Assembly (NCBI RefSeq): GCF_020253645.1
Contig: NZ_JADCBG010000110.1
Span: forward strand, 1 to 64,000
Source: Phenylobacterium sp.
Lineage (GTDB): Bacteria > Pseudomonadota > Alphaproteobacteria > Caulobacterales > Caulobacteraceae
Direction: 5' to 3'
Length of the DNA: 64,000 bases
Shown here: positions 21,591-63,464 of the stretch, in pieces
How the letters are laid out: every line of letters begins with the position of its first letter
Position numbering within the stretch: position 1 is the first letter of the stretch
Made by a program: the position numbers and the translations under genes
Notes under the pieces: generated by a model
Told to the model about the DNA's origin: nothing
The model's database searches: none
Seen by the model: the letters and a program-made list of their open reading frames with translations, nothing else

Positions 21591-23360
21591 TCAGTCCGGA
21601 TCGGCCCGGTGTCCCGGCCGGCCGGCCGGCCCTTCCCGGGCGGCCACGGCGAGGGCGAGGGCCACTCCGAGCCCTCCGAGGACCGCCGAGTAAAGAAAGA
21701 AGGCGATGTATCCGGCGCCGAGGCCGGTCGCGCTGACGCCCGACTTCAGAGCGGCCTCGGCGAGGCCGCCGGCCGGAATCGGACCCAGAAGGGCGCCGAG
21801 GGCGGCGGTGGGACCGCCGGCGTCCGACATTCGCGCCGCCGCCTCCACGAACCGGCCCGACTGGGACGCGACAAGCTTGCCGAGCAGGGCGTAGAGCGAT
21901 GAGAACAGCGCGTACTGGGAGGCGGTGAACCCGCGGCTTGTCAGGCTGGACATGTACGCGATCAGGCAGGTCCCGGCGAACCCCGACGCCAGGTTGTCCA
22001 GGCTGATCGCCGCCGCCAGGGCCCAGACCTGGGCGCCCTGCAGGGTCAGCCAGGCGAAGGCCAGGTTCGAGATCGGCCCTGCAAAGGCCCCGATCACAAG
22101 GGACCGGATCAGACCCAGCCGCGCCACCGCCAGGCCGCCGAGAGCCACGCCGGCCAGGGACATCACCACCCCCAGAACCTTTCGCACCTCGGCGATCTCC
22201 AGCTTGGAGAAGCCAAGGTCCAGATAGAAGGGGTTCATGATGTTCAGGACGAAGTCGGGCAGCCGATAGACGCAGATCAGGGCGAGGATCAGAGCGGCCG
22301 TTCCCCGGTGTCTCCGCATGAAGTCCGCAAGGGGCTCGCCCAGGGCCCGGAAGAGAATCCGGCCAGGGCGGCTCGGCCGGCCCGGCAGGGGGATCACCGA
22401 ACCGGCCAGGAGGGCCAGTCCGCCCAGGGCGACGACGACCTGGGCGATGGCGCCGGCGGGCTTGGCCTCCCAGAGCCCGGAGACGGCGGAGGCAGCTCCC
22501 TCGAGGCCGGTGAAGGAGAGCGGCGCCGTGATCAGGATCGGGTCCCCGGACAGGCCGGAGCCCAGGAGGATCACCGCCAGCGCGAGGAGCGCTCCGCGCC
22601 CCGTCCACTCCAGGGCGTCCCGGCCGGGGCGGGGAAGGGTCTCGCCCGCGCGCTCGGTCGCCGGCGCTTCGGCGCCCTCCCCGGCGGCGCCCTCCCCGGC
22701 GGCGACCTCCCTGGCCGCGTCCCTCGGCGCCGCCAGCACCCCTGCAACCCCGCAGAGCATCAGCGCCGCCATCAGGGCGTAGGAGCCGCCCCAGCCGAGG
22801 CTGTCGCTCAGGACAAGGGGCAGGATCCCGGCCAGGATGATGGCGATCCGGTAGCCCCACTGGTAGGCGGCCGCCAGGGCCCCCGCCCGCTCCGGGCCTG
22901 CCGCCTCGATCCGCCAGGCGTCGATGACGATGTCCTGGGTCGCCGAGACAAAGCCCACCAGCACGGCCAGGCTCGCCATCGCCCAGAGGCTCTGCGCCGG
23001 ATCCACTCCGGAGATCGCCAGGAGCCCGGCCATGATCAGGCCCTGGCAGACGAGCATCCAGGAACGTCTTCGTCCGAGGCGTCGGGTCAGGCCGGGTATG
23101 GCCACCCGGTCCACCAGGGGCGCCCAGAGAAACTTGACCGAGTAGGCGAGGGTGGCGAGGCTGAAGACCCCGATCACCTCCAGGGACAGGCCGGCGTCGC
23201 GCAGCCATGCCGAGAGCGTGTCGAATATCAGCAGGTTGGGGAGACCTGAGGCGAAGCCCAGGGCCAGCATCACCAGGGACCGCCGCTCCAGGAAGACCGC
23301 GAGGGCCTGAAGGGTCGAGAGCCGCTCCTCCCTGCTCTCCGGCGCCGCATTCTCGCTCAT
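21591..23360 (-). CDS. AmpG-family MFS transporter (muropeptide permease-like)
   Basis: MLALGFASGLPNLLIFDTLSAWLRDAGLSLEVIGVFSLATLAYSVKFLWAPLVDRVAIPGLTRRLGRRRSWM, SATQDIVIDAWRIE. Confidence 0.9.
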   Translation of the reverse strand: MSENAAPESREERLSTLQALAVFLERRSLVMLALGFASGLPNLLIFDTLSAWLRDAGLSLEVIGVFSLATLAYSVKFLWAPLVDRVAIPGLTRRLGRRRSWMLVCQGLIMAGLLAISGVDPAQSLWAMASLAVLVGFVSATQDIVIDAWRIEAAGPERAGALAAAYQWGYRIAIILAGILPLVLSDSLGWGGSYALMAALMLCGVAGVLAAPRDAAREVAAGEGAAGEGAEAPATERAGETLPRPGRDALEWTGRGALLALAVILLGSGLSGDPILITAPLSFTGLEGAASAVSGLWEAKPAGAIAQVVVALGGLALLAGSVIPLPGRPSRPGRILFRALGEPLADFMRRHRGTAALILALICVYRLPDFVLNIMNPFYLDLGFSKLEIAEVRKVLGVVMSLAGVALGGLAVARLGLIRSLVIGAFAGPISNLAFAWLTLQGAQVWALAAAISLDNLASGFAGTCLIAYMSSLTSRGFTASQYALFSSLYALLGKLVASQSGRFVEAAARMSDAGGPTAALGALLGPIPAGGLAEAALKSGVSATGLGAGYIAFFLYSAVLGGLGVALALAVAAREGPAGRPGHRADPD

Positions 23361-23457: not shown

Positions 23458-25002
23458 TCAGGCCAGTTGATGCTGTCCCGTGGCGGGGCTCCAGCCGCTG
23501 GCGACGCGGGTCAGGATTCGCCTCAGTGCATCTCCCGAGAGGGGCTTGACCAGGAATTCGTCCATTCCGGCGGCGAGGCACGCCTGCCGGTCATCCTCGA
23601 AGGCGTTGGCGGTGAGGGCGACTATGGGCGTCGAGAGACCCAGGGCGCGCATTTCCTGTGCGGTCTCCAGTCCGCTCATGCCGGGCATGCGCATGTCCAT
23701 CAGGATCAGGTCATAGGCGCCGACCGCGACGGCCGCCATGGCCTCGGGTCCGCTGCCGGCGTGATCGACCGAACAACCCTCTCGGGTCAGCATGGCCGTG
23801 GCCAGCAGGGCGTTGATGGCGTGATCTTCGACCAGCAGGACCCGGATGCCTAGGGCGACCGCAGGGGCGATCCGGTCATCGAGCGACTCCTTCCGCTTGC
23901 CGGCTCCGGCCGCGGCCAGGACACGTTCGGCCAGGGAGCCGGGGCGCAGCGGCTTGATGAGATAGCCGGCGAATCCACGCTGTCTGTAGATCTCGATCTG
24001 GGTCCGGTCCTCTGGCGACAGAAGGATGATGGCCGGCCGGTCATCCGGCGGGGCCTGAGGCGCCAGGGCGTGATCGACCAGCAGCACCTCTGCGTCCGCC
24101 GGTGGCGCCTCCAGTCCGGCGGCCCCGGCCGCCTCGCCCCCCCGCGCCAGGACCTGCCGGTTTGCGGCCTCCCTGACCACAAGGCAGGGGCTGATGACCC
24201 CGACCCTGCGGCGGGCCAGGTTCCGACTCGGCGCGCCGCCCGCTTTCGCTGCAGGGAAGTCCAGCCAGAAGTCGGCGCCGCCGTCCGTGGCGGAGTCCAC
24301 CCCCGCCGCGGCGTTCAGCGCAGTGGCCAGTGAGCGGACGATGGCCAGGCCGAGGCCTGCCCCGCCCAGGCTTACAGCGTCGACCCGGGGGTCCAACTGT
24401 ATGAAGGGCTCGAAGATTCGCTCGCGATCGTTCTCGGCGACGCCGGGGCCCGTATCCCGCACGCTCAGCCGGATGCGGCCCGGCCCTGCGGGCGCCGCAG
24501 ACACAATGACCCCTCCCGACCGGGTGAACTTGATCGCGTTTCCGATATAGTTGAGCAGCACCTGCCGTAGCCGGCTCTCATCGGCCCGGATCCTGCCCAG
24601 TCCCGGCGCCGTCCACCAGCCGATCTCAAGCCCCTTTTCGATGGCGCGAGGGGCCGTCAGTTCGCAGACGCCCCTCAGGAGGTCCTCCAGCGAAACCTCC
24701 TCGTTGACGATCTCAACGCTTGAGGCGCCAAGCCGGGCGAAGTCGAGAAGCTGGTTCACCAGGCCCAGGAGATGCTCGCCGGACTCCCTCAGGGCGTCCA
24801 CATAGCTGCGCTGCTCCCCGGAAAGGGTGGTCGCCTCCAGAAGGCGCGCCAGGCCGATGACGCCGTTGAGCGGCGTCCGGAACTCGTGGCTCAGGCTGGC
24901 CAGCTGTTCGATGGTGACCGGCGCGGCCGCCTGCTCGCCGCGGCCCGGGTCCCGGGCTGCAGCGGGGTCGGCGTCGAACGAAGGTCTGACGGCGTGGATC
25001 AT
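23458..25002 (-). CDS. Cytosolic hybrid histidine kinase (DHp-CA-REC1-REC2), ShkA-like
   Basis: SHEFRTPLNGVIG (H box); ATPase motifs NYIGNAIKFT and LGGAGLGLAIV; degenerate receiver with GYLIKPLR; linker ESLDDRIAP; canonical receiver LLVEDHAINALL...DLILMDMRMPGMSG. Confidence 0.9.
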   Translation of the reverse strand: MIHAVRPSFDADPAAARDPGRGEQAAAPVTIEQLASLSHEFRTPLNGVIGLARLLEATTLSGEQRSYVDALRESGEHLLGLVNQLLDFARLGASSVEIVNEEVSLEDLLRGVCELTAPRAIEKGLEIGWWTAPGLGRIRADESRLRQVLLNYIGNAIKFTRSGGVIVSAAPAGPGRIRLSVRDTGPGVAENDRERIFEPFIQLDPRVDAVSLGGAGLGLAIVRSLATALNAAAGVDSATDGGADFWLDFPAAKAGGAPSRNLARRRVGVISPCLVVREAANRQVLARGGEAAGAAGLEAPPADAEVLLVDHALAPQAPPDDRPAIILLSPEDRTQIEIYRQRGFAGYLIKPLRPGSLAERVLAAAGAGKRKESLDDRIAPAVALGIRVLLVEDHAINALLATAMLTREGCSVDHAGSGPEAMAAVAVGAYDLILMDMRMPGMSGLETAQEMRALGLSTPIVALTANAFEDDRQACLAAGMDEFLVKPLSGDALRRILTRVASGWSPATGQHQLA

Positions 25003-25077: not shown

Positions 25078-26613
25078 TCAGGCGCCTCCGCCGACTCCCC
25101 GATAGGCCAGGGCCTCGGCGACATGACGGCGGCCGACGGGCGGGGAAGGCGCGCCGGGCGCAGCCTCCAGGTCGGCCAGGGTGCGGGCCAGCCGCAGGAC
25201 CCGGCTCCAGCCCCGGGCGGTGAGGCCCGCGGCGTCCGCGGCGCGGGTCAGCAGGGCCCGGGCGTCCGGCTCGGGGTCGGCGATGGCCTGCAGCCAGTCG
25301 CCTGAGGCCCGGGCGTTGGCGGCCTCGGTCTCGGGCCTGCCCGCCTCTGCGGCCCGGCGGACCTGGACCTGGCGCGCCGCCGCCACCCGGGCGGCGACCT
25401 CGGCCGATCCCTCGGCGGCGGCGGGCAGGGCGAGGTCGGCGGCGCGCACGGCGGGGACCTCCACCTGCAGGTCGATCCGGTCCAGGAAGGGCCCCGATAC
25501 CCGCGCCCGGTAGTCGACCTGGCAGCGCGGCGCCCGACCGCAGGCGCCCCGTCCCTCGCCCCCCTTGCCGCACTTGCAGGGGTTCTGGGCGGCGACCAGC
25601 TGGAACCGGGCCGGGTAGCGCACGTGTCCGGCCGCCCGGGCCACGGTGATCTCGCCGGTCTCCAGGGGCTGGCGCAGGGAGTCCAGGGCCTGGGCGCTGA
25701 ACTCCGGCAGCTCGTCCAGGAACAGTACGCCATTGTGCGCCAGGGAGGCCTCGCCGGGGCGGATGCGCGCGCCGCCGCCGGTCAGGGCCGCCATGGTCGC
25801 CGAATGGTGCGGGGCGCGGAAGGGCCGGGCCCGGGTCAGCTCGCCCCGGGCGATCAGTCCGGCCACCGAATGGACCATGGAGGTCTCCAGTAACTCGGCG
25901 GCCGAGAGGGGCGGAAGGAGGCCCGGCAGGCGGGCGGCCATCATCGACTTTCCGGCGCCGGGCGGACCGGTCAGCAGGAGGTTGTGGCCCCCGGCGGCGG
26001 CGATCTCCAGGGCCCGGCGGGCGGTCTCCTGGCCGCGCACCTCGCGCAGGTCGGGGGCGGGAGCGCCTTCGGTCAGGGCGCCCGGTTCCGGGGGCGAGAG
26101 CGCCTGGGTTCCGCGGAAGTGGTTGACCAGGGCCACCAGGCTGGGCGGCGCCAGGATCGGCGTCGACCCCGCCCAGGCCGCCTCGGGCCCGCTGGCCTCG
26201 GGGCAGATCAGGCCCAGGCCCAGGGCCCCCGCCGCCACCGCCGCCGGCAGGGCGCCCGCCGAGGCGGTGATGCGCCCGTCGAGGGACAATTCGCCCATGG
26301 CCGCCCAGCCCTCGAGGGCGTCGGGCGGGATCACCCCCATGGCCGCCATCACGGCCAGGGCGATGGGCAGGTCGTAATGACTGCCCTCCTTTGGCAGGTC
26401 GGCGGGGGCCAGGTTGCAGATGATCCGGCGGCCCGGCATGGCCAGGCCCAGGCCGGCGAAGGCGGCCCGCACCCGCTCGCGGCTCTCGGCCACGGCCTTG
26501 TCGCCCAGGCCCACCAGGACGAACTTCTGCTCGCCCGCGGTCAGCTGGACCTCGACCTCGACGGGCCGGGCCTCGACGCCCAGGAAGGCCAGGGTGATGA
26601 CGCGGGCGGCCAT
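25078..26613 (-). CDS. YifB/ComM family Mg-chelatase-like AAA ATPase
   Basis: GAGKSMMAARLPGLLPPLS, RPFRAPHHSATMAALTGGG, LAHNGVLFLDELPEF, AAQNPCKCG; start MAARVITLAFLG. Confidence 0.95.
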   Translation of the reverse strand: MAARVITLAFLGVEARPVEVEVQLTAGEQKFVLVGLGDKAVAESRERVRAAFAGLGLAMPGRRIICNLAPADLPKEGSHYDLPIALAVMAAMGVIPPDALEGWAAMGELSLDGRITASAGALPAAVAAGALGLGLICPEASGPEAAWAGSTPILAPPSLVALVNHFRGTQALSPPEPGALTEGAPAPDLREVRGQETARRALEIAAAGGHNLLLTGPPGAGKSMMAARLPGLLPPLSAAELLETSMVHSVAGLIARGELTRARPFRAPHHSATMAALTGGGARIRPGEASLAHNGVLFLDELPEFSAQALDSLRQPLETGEITVARAAGHVRYPARFQLVAAQNPCKCGKGGEGRGACGRAPRCQVDYRARVSGPFLDRIDLQVEVPAVRAADLALPAAAEGSAEVAARVAAARQVQVRRAAEAGRPETEAANARASGDWLQAIADPEPDARALLTRAADAAGLTARGWSRVLRLARTLADLEAAPGAPSPPVGRRHVAEALAYRGVGGGA

Positions 26614-26750
26614 GCGCTCTCCTTGCGCTGCGCCCCGTTCCCCGCTCTCAGACAATCACGTCGCTTGCCGACAGACAAGAACAAAAATCGAACATCAATC
26701 CTGTACACCTGGGCGGAACGAGGGCAGGAGGGCGCCCGCGCGCATTCCTG

Positions 26751-61947: not shown

Positions 61948-63464
61948 GTGCCCGACGGCGATTCCGGGCGCAACCTGCGCGGCGCCCTGGCGCCCGGCGC
62001 GGGCAGCTGGATCTCGAAGACGGCGCCGGCCGGCCCCGAGCCGGCGAGGATGAGTTCCCCGCCGTGCCCCTGGACGAGCTCCCGGGCGATGGCCAGGCCA
62101 AGGCCCGCGCCGTCGGCCCGGCCGGAGCCGGCGAAGGGCTGGAAGAGGCGTTCCCGGGCGCGCTCGGAGAGGCCGGGGCCATTGTCCGCCACGGTGATCA
62201 CGTCCGTCTCGCCGTCGCGCCGCCAGCTGGCCCGGACCACGCCGGACCGAGACGGGACGGTGGCCTCTATCGCCTCGCGGGCGTTGCGCATGAGGTTCAC
62301 CAGGATGCGGTGCAGCTGGTCCGGGTCGGCCAGAACCTGGACCCCGGGTTCGACCTCGCAGACGAACCGGACGCGTCGGTGATCGCTCTCCGGCCCGTCC
62401 GAGAGCCGGCCTTCCTCCGCGGCGGCCAGCAGGGCCTCGGCAAGCTCCACCGACGCCAGGGCGGGCGGGGCCTCCTGGGTCTTGCCATAGGCGAGCACCT
62501 CGGTGGCGAGCCGGACCGCGCGGTCCAGCGCCCGCTCCAGTCGGGGCAGGGCCTGGGCGACGCGGGGGTCTGGCACGGAGGCGAGACGCTCGGAGGCCAT
62601 CTGGGCGCTGGTCAGCATGTTGCGCAGGTCGTGATTGATCTTGGCCACCGCCTCGCCCAGGGCCGCCAGCCTCGCGCGGGAGGCCAGGGCGGTCCGCAGG
62701 TCGGCCTGCATCCGGTCGAGCTCGATCTCGGCCCTGCCGATCTCATCCCGCCGGCCGGAGGGGACCAGGTGGGCGGTGGGATCGTCCGGATCGGCCCGGA
62801 ACCGCTCCATCGCCCGCGTGATCCGCTGCATGGGCCGGACGAGGAAGAAGTTCAGGGACAGGAAGACCAGGGCCCCGGCCAGACCCGCCACGAACAGGGT
62901 GGTGAAGACCAGCTGCCAGAGATAGGCCTTGAGCTCGCCCTTCAGGGGCGCGTGGGGGGCCACCACCTCGATGAACTCGGCCTCCTCGCGGAAGCGCGGC
63001 TCGGCGATCACCCGGACCGCGCGGTCGTCGCCCGCGCTCAGAGTCTGGAACGGCGCCAGGAGCCAGGAACTGACCGCCTGCTCCCGCAGGTCGACCAGAT
63101 AGGGCGCCTCGTCCCGGCGCGGTCCCTGCAGGACCAGTCGCCGGAGGCCCCGGGACTGGATGGCGACGGTCTCGACGCCGGCGCCGGCCAGAAGCTGGGC
63201 GGAAAGCTTCTCGGACACCACCCGGTCGGGCGCCACCTCCGTGGCCAGGGAGGCCAGCTCTGCGGCGCGGACGCGGTCGAGAAGCCAGTTGCGCTCGAAG
63301 GCCGCAAGGGACGGGGGCAGGATGAACACCCCCGCCAGGGCGATGAAGAGGGTGGTGAGCACGAGCAGGCGCGCAGACAGGCCGCCCGGCCAGAAGAGCC
63401 TGCGGCCGGTTCTACCCCATCCGGCCTTACCGGCGGCGGGTTCTGGCGCCTGCACCTCGGCCAT
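61944..63464 (-). CDS. HAMP-domain sensor histidine kinase
   Basis: Two TM segments, HAMP region FFLVRPMQRITRAMERF, H box AKINHDLRNMLTSAQM, ATPase motifs NLMRNAREAIEA and GAGLGLAIARELV. Confidence 0.93.
   Translation of the reverse strand: MAEVQAPEPAAGKAGWGRTGRRLFWPGGLSARLLVLTTLFIALAGVFILPPSLAAFERNWLLDRVRAAELASLATEVAPDRVVSEKLSAQLLAGAGVETVAIQSRGLRRLVLQGPRRDEAPYLVDLREQAVSSWLLAPFQTLSAGDDRAVRVIAEPRFREEAEFIEVVAPHAPLKGELKAYLWQLVFTTLFVAGLAGALVFLSLNFFLVRPMQRITRAMERFRADPDDPTAHLVPSGRRDEIGRAEIELDRMQADLRTALASRARLAALGEAVAKINHDLRNMLTSAQMASERLASVPDPRVAQALPRLERALDRAVRLATEVLAYGKTQEAPPALASVELAEALLAAAEEGRLSDGPESDHRRVRFVCEVEPGVQVLADPDQLHRILVNLMRNAREAIEATVPSRSGVVRASWRRDGETDVITVADNGPGLSERARERLFQPFAGSGRADGAGLGLAIARELVQGHGGELILAGSGPAGAVFEIQLPAPGARAPRRLRPESPSGT

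Follow-up and report, generated by a model that had tools for sequence, protein, structure and literature searches.

The window analysed here, a 64,000-nucleotide stretch of Phenylobacterium sp. DNA, encodes a hybrid histidine kinase that is very probably the ortholog of Caulobacter crescentus ShkA, feeding a c-di-GMP-switched relay to ShpA and TacA whose output does not run via SpmX. The organism is a Phenylobacterium-like member of the Caulobacteraceae with a small genome. Taken alone, the kinase is what one would expect of its family, and the published ShkA alignment already includes the protein of Phenylobacterium zucineum (PMC7010744). What deserves following up is that the relay has been kept while SpmX and the membrane region of DivJ have been lost.

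Identity and genomic setting of the kinase

The reading frame runs on the minus strand from an ATG at 25002 to a stop at 23458, a span that a preliminary description of this DNA had given exactly, with the strand left unstated. The same description proposed a DHp-CA-REC1-REC2 protein lacking PAS and transmembrane domains, and this plan is borne out by Pfam matches to HisKA, HATPase_c and Response_reg and by the match to the ShkA structure 6QRJ: the kinase is cytoplasmic and has no N-terminal sensor, with no PAS domain found by Pfam and no transmembrane domain in its 514 residues. Pfam recognises Response_reg in residues 388-496 only and leaves the segment between CA and REC2 unassigned, because REC1 is too degenerate. 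That REC1 is degenerate, as had been suggested, is also apparent from S271-P272, which stand where receivers carry an acidic pair; an Asp, D310, is still present at the phospho-acceptor position. His39 and, in REC2, D436, K486 and E392-D393 are all in place, corresponding to ShkA H23, D430, K480 and acidic pair.

Table 1. Features of the shkA locus, with positions in the window and residues of the kinase
Feature	Position	Strand	Basis
shkA ortholog, hybrid histidine kinase, 514 aa	23458..25002	-	ORF; phmmer and Foldseek to 6QRJ
DHp/HisKA domain, residues 32-93	24724..24909	-	Pfam PF00512; phospho-accepting His39 = ShkA H23 by alignment
CA/HATPase_c domain, residues 141-252	24247..24582	-	Pfam PF02518
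REC1 pseudo-receiver, residues 266-364	23911..24207	-	6QRL match over residues 262-377; acidic pair gone; model without alpha3
R333 = ShkA R324	24004..24006	-	Alignment
Y347-L-I-K-P-L-R353 = ShkA Y338-R344, predicted c-di-GMP site	23944..23964	-	Alignment; strand beta5 and before helix alpha5 in model
D375-D376-R377 latch = ShkA DDR 369-371, REC1-REC2 linker	23872..23880	-	Alignment
REC2 canonical receiver, residues 388-496	23515..23841	-	Pfam PF00072, E 1e-29; E392, D393, D436, T464, K486
ampG-family muropeptide transporter	21591..23360	-	NCBIfam TIGR00901; immediately downstream of shkA, as in C. crescentus
comM/yifB-type AAA ATPase	25078..26655	-	TIGR00368; immediately upstream of shkA

In a phmmer search of all PDB sequences, the top match is C. 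crescentus ShkA (6QRJ; E 7.1e-146, 490 bits, residues 29-499), with 55% identity over 470 residues. The second match reaches 157 bits over the kinase core only, and no unrelated hybrid kinase family scores better than ShkA. An AlphaFold2 model built from 29 sequences (mean pLDDT 79.6, pTM 0.64, REC1 mostly above 90) returns 6QRJ first in Foldseek (E 1.4e-50, 484 columns) as the sole full-length fold match among the matches listed, the remaining ones being kinase cores of about 220 columns. In the model, REC1 has no helix alpha3 between beta3 (306-310) and beta4 (324-328), a reported peculiarity of ShkA REC1 (PMC7010744); beta5 (346-349) carries Y347 and I349, and R353 directly precedes alpha5 (354-364). 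Superposition on 6QRJ gives an rmsd of 10.9 over the full length and the domain arrangement is not closely reproduced, so the model is uninformative on the closed state.

The comM-shkA-ampG neighbourhood is shared with C. crescentus, where ampG also lies downstream of shkA (PMC7010744). Among 56 loci from five families read with their flanks, 50 have ampG as the next gene downstream in the same orientation, among them all 18 from Caulobacteraceae. The gene is single-copy in the window's genome (G000; 2.87 Mb, 96% complete), in which the next match scores 116 bits, and 175 of 200 sampled genomes of the order Caulobacterales have a ShkA match at E <= 1e-60. In the ShkA gene tree each of the five families forms one group; the window falls inside Caulobacteraceae and joins two small-genome relatives, G096 and G131 (support 100), in a clade with a long branch (0.47). 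Among named relatives the nearest are Phenylobacterium records (75% identity for the closest), from the same genus as the P. zucineum ortholog. By its sequence, the kinase at 25002..23458 is thus an ordinary, well-supported ortholog of the known c-di-GMP-gated ShkA, and the identity first proposed for it stands on the best PDB match along the whole protein, synteny and single copy. Elsewhere in the window, positions 61974-62372 (minus strand) hold a second histidine-kinase ATPase-domain match, at 40% over residues 125-260 of ShkA.

The c-di-GMP pocket and the DDR latch

The preliminary description had rested its case on a Y-L-I-K-P-L-R stretch, an Arg at -14 and a DDR in the linker. On alignment to ShkA, all of these positions and their spacing prove equivalent: R324, Y338, I340, P342 and R344 correspond exactly to R333, Y347, I349, P351 and R353, all identical, with R333 14 residues N-terminal of Y347, and D369-D370-R371 and D430 correspond to D375-D376-R377 and D436. 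The published ShkA residue numbers (R324, Y338, I340, P342, R344, D369, R371 and D430) agree with the 6QRJ alignment; apart from Y338 and the residues mutated in published work, we take R324, I340, P342 and R344 to be c-di-GMP contacts. As many as 34 of 39 functionally studied ShkA positions are identical in the kinase, the five differences being F230L, F234A and D325T together with K331R and Q351R, both of them common among ShkA orthologs. Identity to ShkA is 75% in DHp, 54% in CA, 69% in the linker and 62% in REC2, and is lowest in REC1 (42%).

Part of this residue set is generic. Among 22 other receiver domains of the same genome, Tyr, [ILVM] and Pro occur together in five, the Arg at -14 occurs in one, and neither the Arg after KP-x nor the full set of five occurs in any. 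Y-x-I-K-P, a common element of ordinary receivers, was accordingly rejected as diagnostic of ShkA; the telling residues are R324, R344 and D-x-R. The proposed signature therefore holds as specific to ShkA for the full residue set, but not for its Y-x-[ILVM]-K-P part. With a full-length ShkA match at E 7e-146, a chance origin of the set becomes irrelevant, and the conclusion stands because of full-length homology even though the original argument drew partly on generic receiver residues.

The ShkA pair F230/F234 is replaced by L247/A251, and F249 between them may compensate. A double Ala mutant of this pair was among those combined with D369N in ShkA rescue tests, and mutants of this kind probably affect the conformational change (PMC7010744). 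The kinase also differs from C. crescentus ShkA at its C-terminus: the Ala-Gly ClpXP degron, reported there for both TacA and ShkA, is absent, and the protein ends in QLA (window 23458-23470). C-termini of other ShkA orthologs vary widely (KVAS, KVG, KLA), and the degron is not defining.

Purified C. crescentus ShkA binds c-di-GMP with a sub-micromolar KD, the Y338A substitution abolishes or interferes with this binding, and mutation of D369 or R371, or removal of REC2, renders the kinase independent of c-di-GMP (PMC7010744). Since all of the ShkA switch residues are kept, we infer the same switch, and c-di-GMP gating of the Phenylobacterium kinase is strongly predicted. By analogy with the C. 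crescentus biochemistry, at low c-di-GMP the REC1-REC2 linker with its DDR latch, together with REC2, would keep the kinase closed. Release would come when c-di-GMP binds the beta5-alpha5 face of REC1 (Y347, I349, P351 and R353, with R333), after which the CA domain would autophosphorylate His39. Phosphate would pass from His39 to REC2 D436, on to the Hpt protein ShpA and finally to the sigma-54 activator TacA.

Relay partners and cell-cycle output

A search for the two partners named in the preliminary description found both encoded in the genome. The ShpA candidate is a 106-aa Hpt protein on contig C138 that matches the ShpA structure 2OOC at E 1e-15 and is the reciprocal counterpart of a C. 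vibrioides Hpt protein; a second Hpt protein, on contig C166, was rejected as ShpA on the grounds that it does not match 2OOC. Of four sigma-54 activators, the one on contig C7 shares 71% identity with the C. vibrioides activator whose C-terminus is Ala-Gly, as reported for the TacA degron. The remaining three have as counterparts proteins taken to be FlbD-, NtrC- and NtrX-like. The TacA ortholog itself (L101) ends in GG rather than Ala-Gly. The genome further encodes a REC-REC-GGDEF (PleD-like) protein, five GGDEF and three EAL domains.

In C. crescentus, active ShkA restores morphology and DivJ localisation in a manner 'entirely dependent on SpmX' (PMC7010744). Recruitment of DivJ to the pole is the work of SpmX (PMC5347347). 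C. crescentus has SpmX and a membrane-anchored DivJ, whereas the window's genome has neither. SpmX was not found in G000, G096 or G131 but was found in all 13 other Caulobacterales genomes tested, and the Pfam profile PF00959 likewise yields no SpmX match in G000 or G096. Unlike the window's lineage, 80 of 101 Phenylobacterium genomes keep SpmX. An assembly gap was rejected as the cause, as SpmX is also missing from complete genomes of 2.8-2.9 Mb (G131, G526 and the single-contig G498); the sister genomes are 99-100% complete, with G131 at 100% in 20 contigs and G498 at 100%. Divergence beyond detection is unlikely as well, given a lysozyme domain that is 72-85% identical among the other genomes compared and the blank Pfam profile in G000 and G096. 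The ShkA of G498 is 80% identical to that of the window, carries the pocket and DDR, and lies beside comM and ampG.

The best DivJ match in G000, G096 and G131 begins only at position 193-270 of the 531-position profile, and the corresponding ORFs contain no hydrophobic segments, as against three to five in the full-length DivJ of six other genomes. These DivJ orthologs (L289, at positions 10454-11341 of contig C8 in G000, L287 and L288) no longer have the N-terminal membrane region, and each is predicted to be a soluble protein. With SpmX missing, the output of the ShkA relay cannot run via SpmX in this lineage, and the relay must then act on other TacA targets. The ShkA-ShpA-TacA relay thus appears to be kept without its known cell-cycle output, and the earlier designation of the protein as a cell-cycle kinase is doubtful here.

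That the protein is a generic hybrid kinase of the BarA, TorS or ArcB kind, resembling ShkA through common kinase and receiver parts alone, we consider to have next to no chance of being correct. The TorS and BarA models do give the best raw NCBIfam scores, but these lie far under the curated cut-offs (276 of 676 bits and 256 of 890), no BarA, TorS or ArcB equivalog reaches its cut-off, and the 490-bit ShkA match extends over the full length, REC1 and linker included. With the Foldseek match, synteny and single copy added, this identity was rejected. It is also quite improbable that REC1 in this lineage binds a ligand other than c-di-GMP. Pseudo-receivers of other kinases do bind other ligands, such as quinones in CikA (PMC12632262), and the Y-x-I-K-P part is generic; yet every contact residue is identical to that of ShkA, also at the discriminating positions R324 and R344, and so is the latch. 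(The five contacts are, as above, in part our assumption.) The genome's c-di-GMP synthases and phosphodiesterases argue in the same direction.

A more specific doubt attaches to whether the switch is shared in full. The replacement of F230/F234 by L247/A251 is its source; the 42% identity of REC1 and the missing Ala-Gly degron also count against the ShkA reading. An ortholog could have retained fold and relay while its c-di-GMP control drifted, becoming weak or altered, after loss of the SpmX-DivJ output; the long branch of the clade, the absence of SpmX, the shortened DivJ and the loss of the Ala-Gly degrons would all fit. Drift would, however, be expected to erode pocket and latch, and both are fully kept in the four of four SpmX-less genomes whose ShkA was read (G000, G096, G131 and G498), which makes drifted control unlikely relative to an intact c-di-GMP switch.

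Pocket and latch across the order

All 36 Caulobacteraceae sequences contain the R-Y-I-P-R pocket with D369 and R371 invariant; the position of D370 holds Asp in 26 sequences and Glu in the other 10. Outside this family, D[DE]R occurs in 10 of 14 sequences of family f3, which has an Aquidulcibacter sequence near it, and in none of 24 sequences from three other Caulobacterales families. At the pocket positions, these three latch-less families of the four others in the order show R-Y-I-P-R throughout in f5, R-[YW]-[IVM]-P-R in f2 and, replacing it, K-W-V-P-R in f4. ShkA-like kinases from more distant parts of the class, often located beside ampG, carry R..Y-x-[ILVM]-K-P-x-R without the latch, although these sequences were selected by REC1 similarity and their motif conservation is consequently biased upward. 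ShkA-like kinases of the other families and of Alphaproteobacteria thus resemble ShkA in the REC1 motif and often in the neighbouring ampG, and many are longer, with extra N-terminal sequence. Judged from the residues present, the pocket is far more widespread across the order than the DDR latch. Individual cases include the ampG-adjoining kinases L055-L079 and L224-L241, with a REC1 pocket and no DDR latch. GYLIKPLR without DDR also occurs in L172 and L176, ShkA-like kinases on two MAG contigs of Alphaproteobacteria, one of which carries the label Bradyrhizobium.

We lean towards the view that this small-genome Phenylobacterium lineage has kept a complete c-di-GMP-gated ShkA-ShpA-TacA relay while losing together its sole known cell-cycle output, SpmX, and the DivJ membrane region, in effect a naturally occurring separation of the switch from the SpmX-DivJ pole. 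More widely, the REC1 pocket would predate the DDR latch or be more stable than it, and latch-less kinases may be gated by another contact. The order-wide survey treats pocket and latch as separate parts of the switch and points to sequences suited to testing one without the other. The lineage itself offers a natural experiment: the target that accounts for the cell-cycle role of the relay in C. crescentus is gone, yet the relay, predicted to be gated by c-di-GMP, persists. Its remaining TacA targets would show what older or broader role it has.
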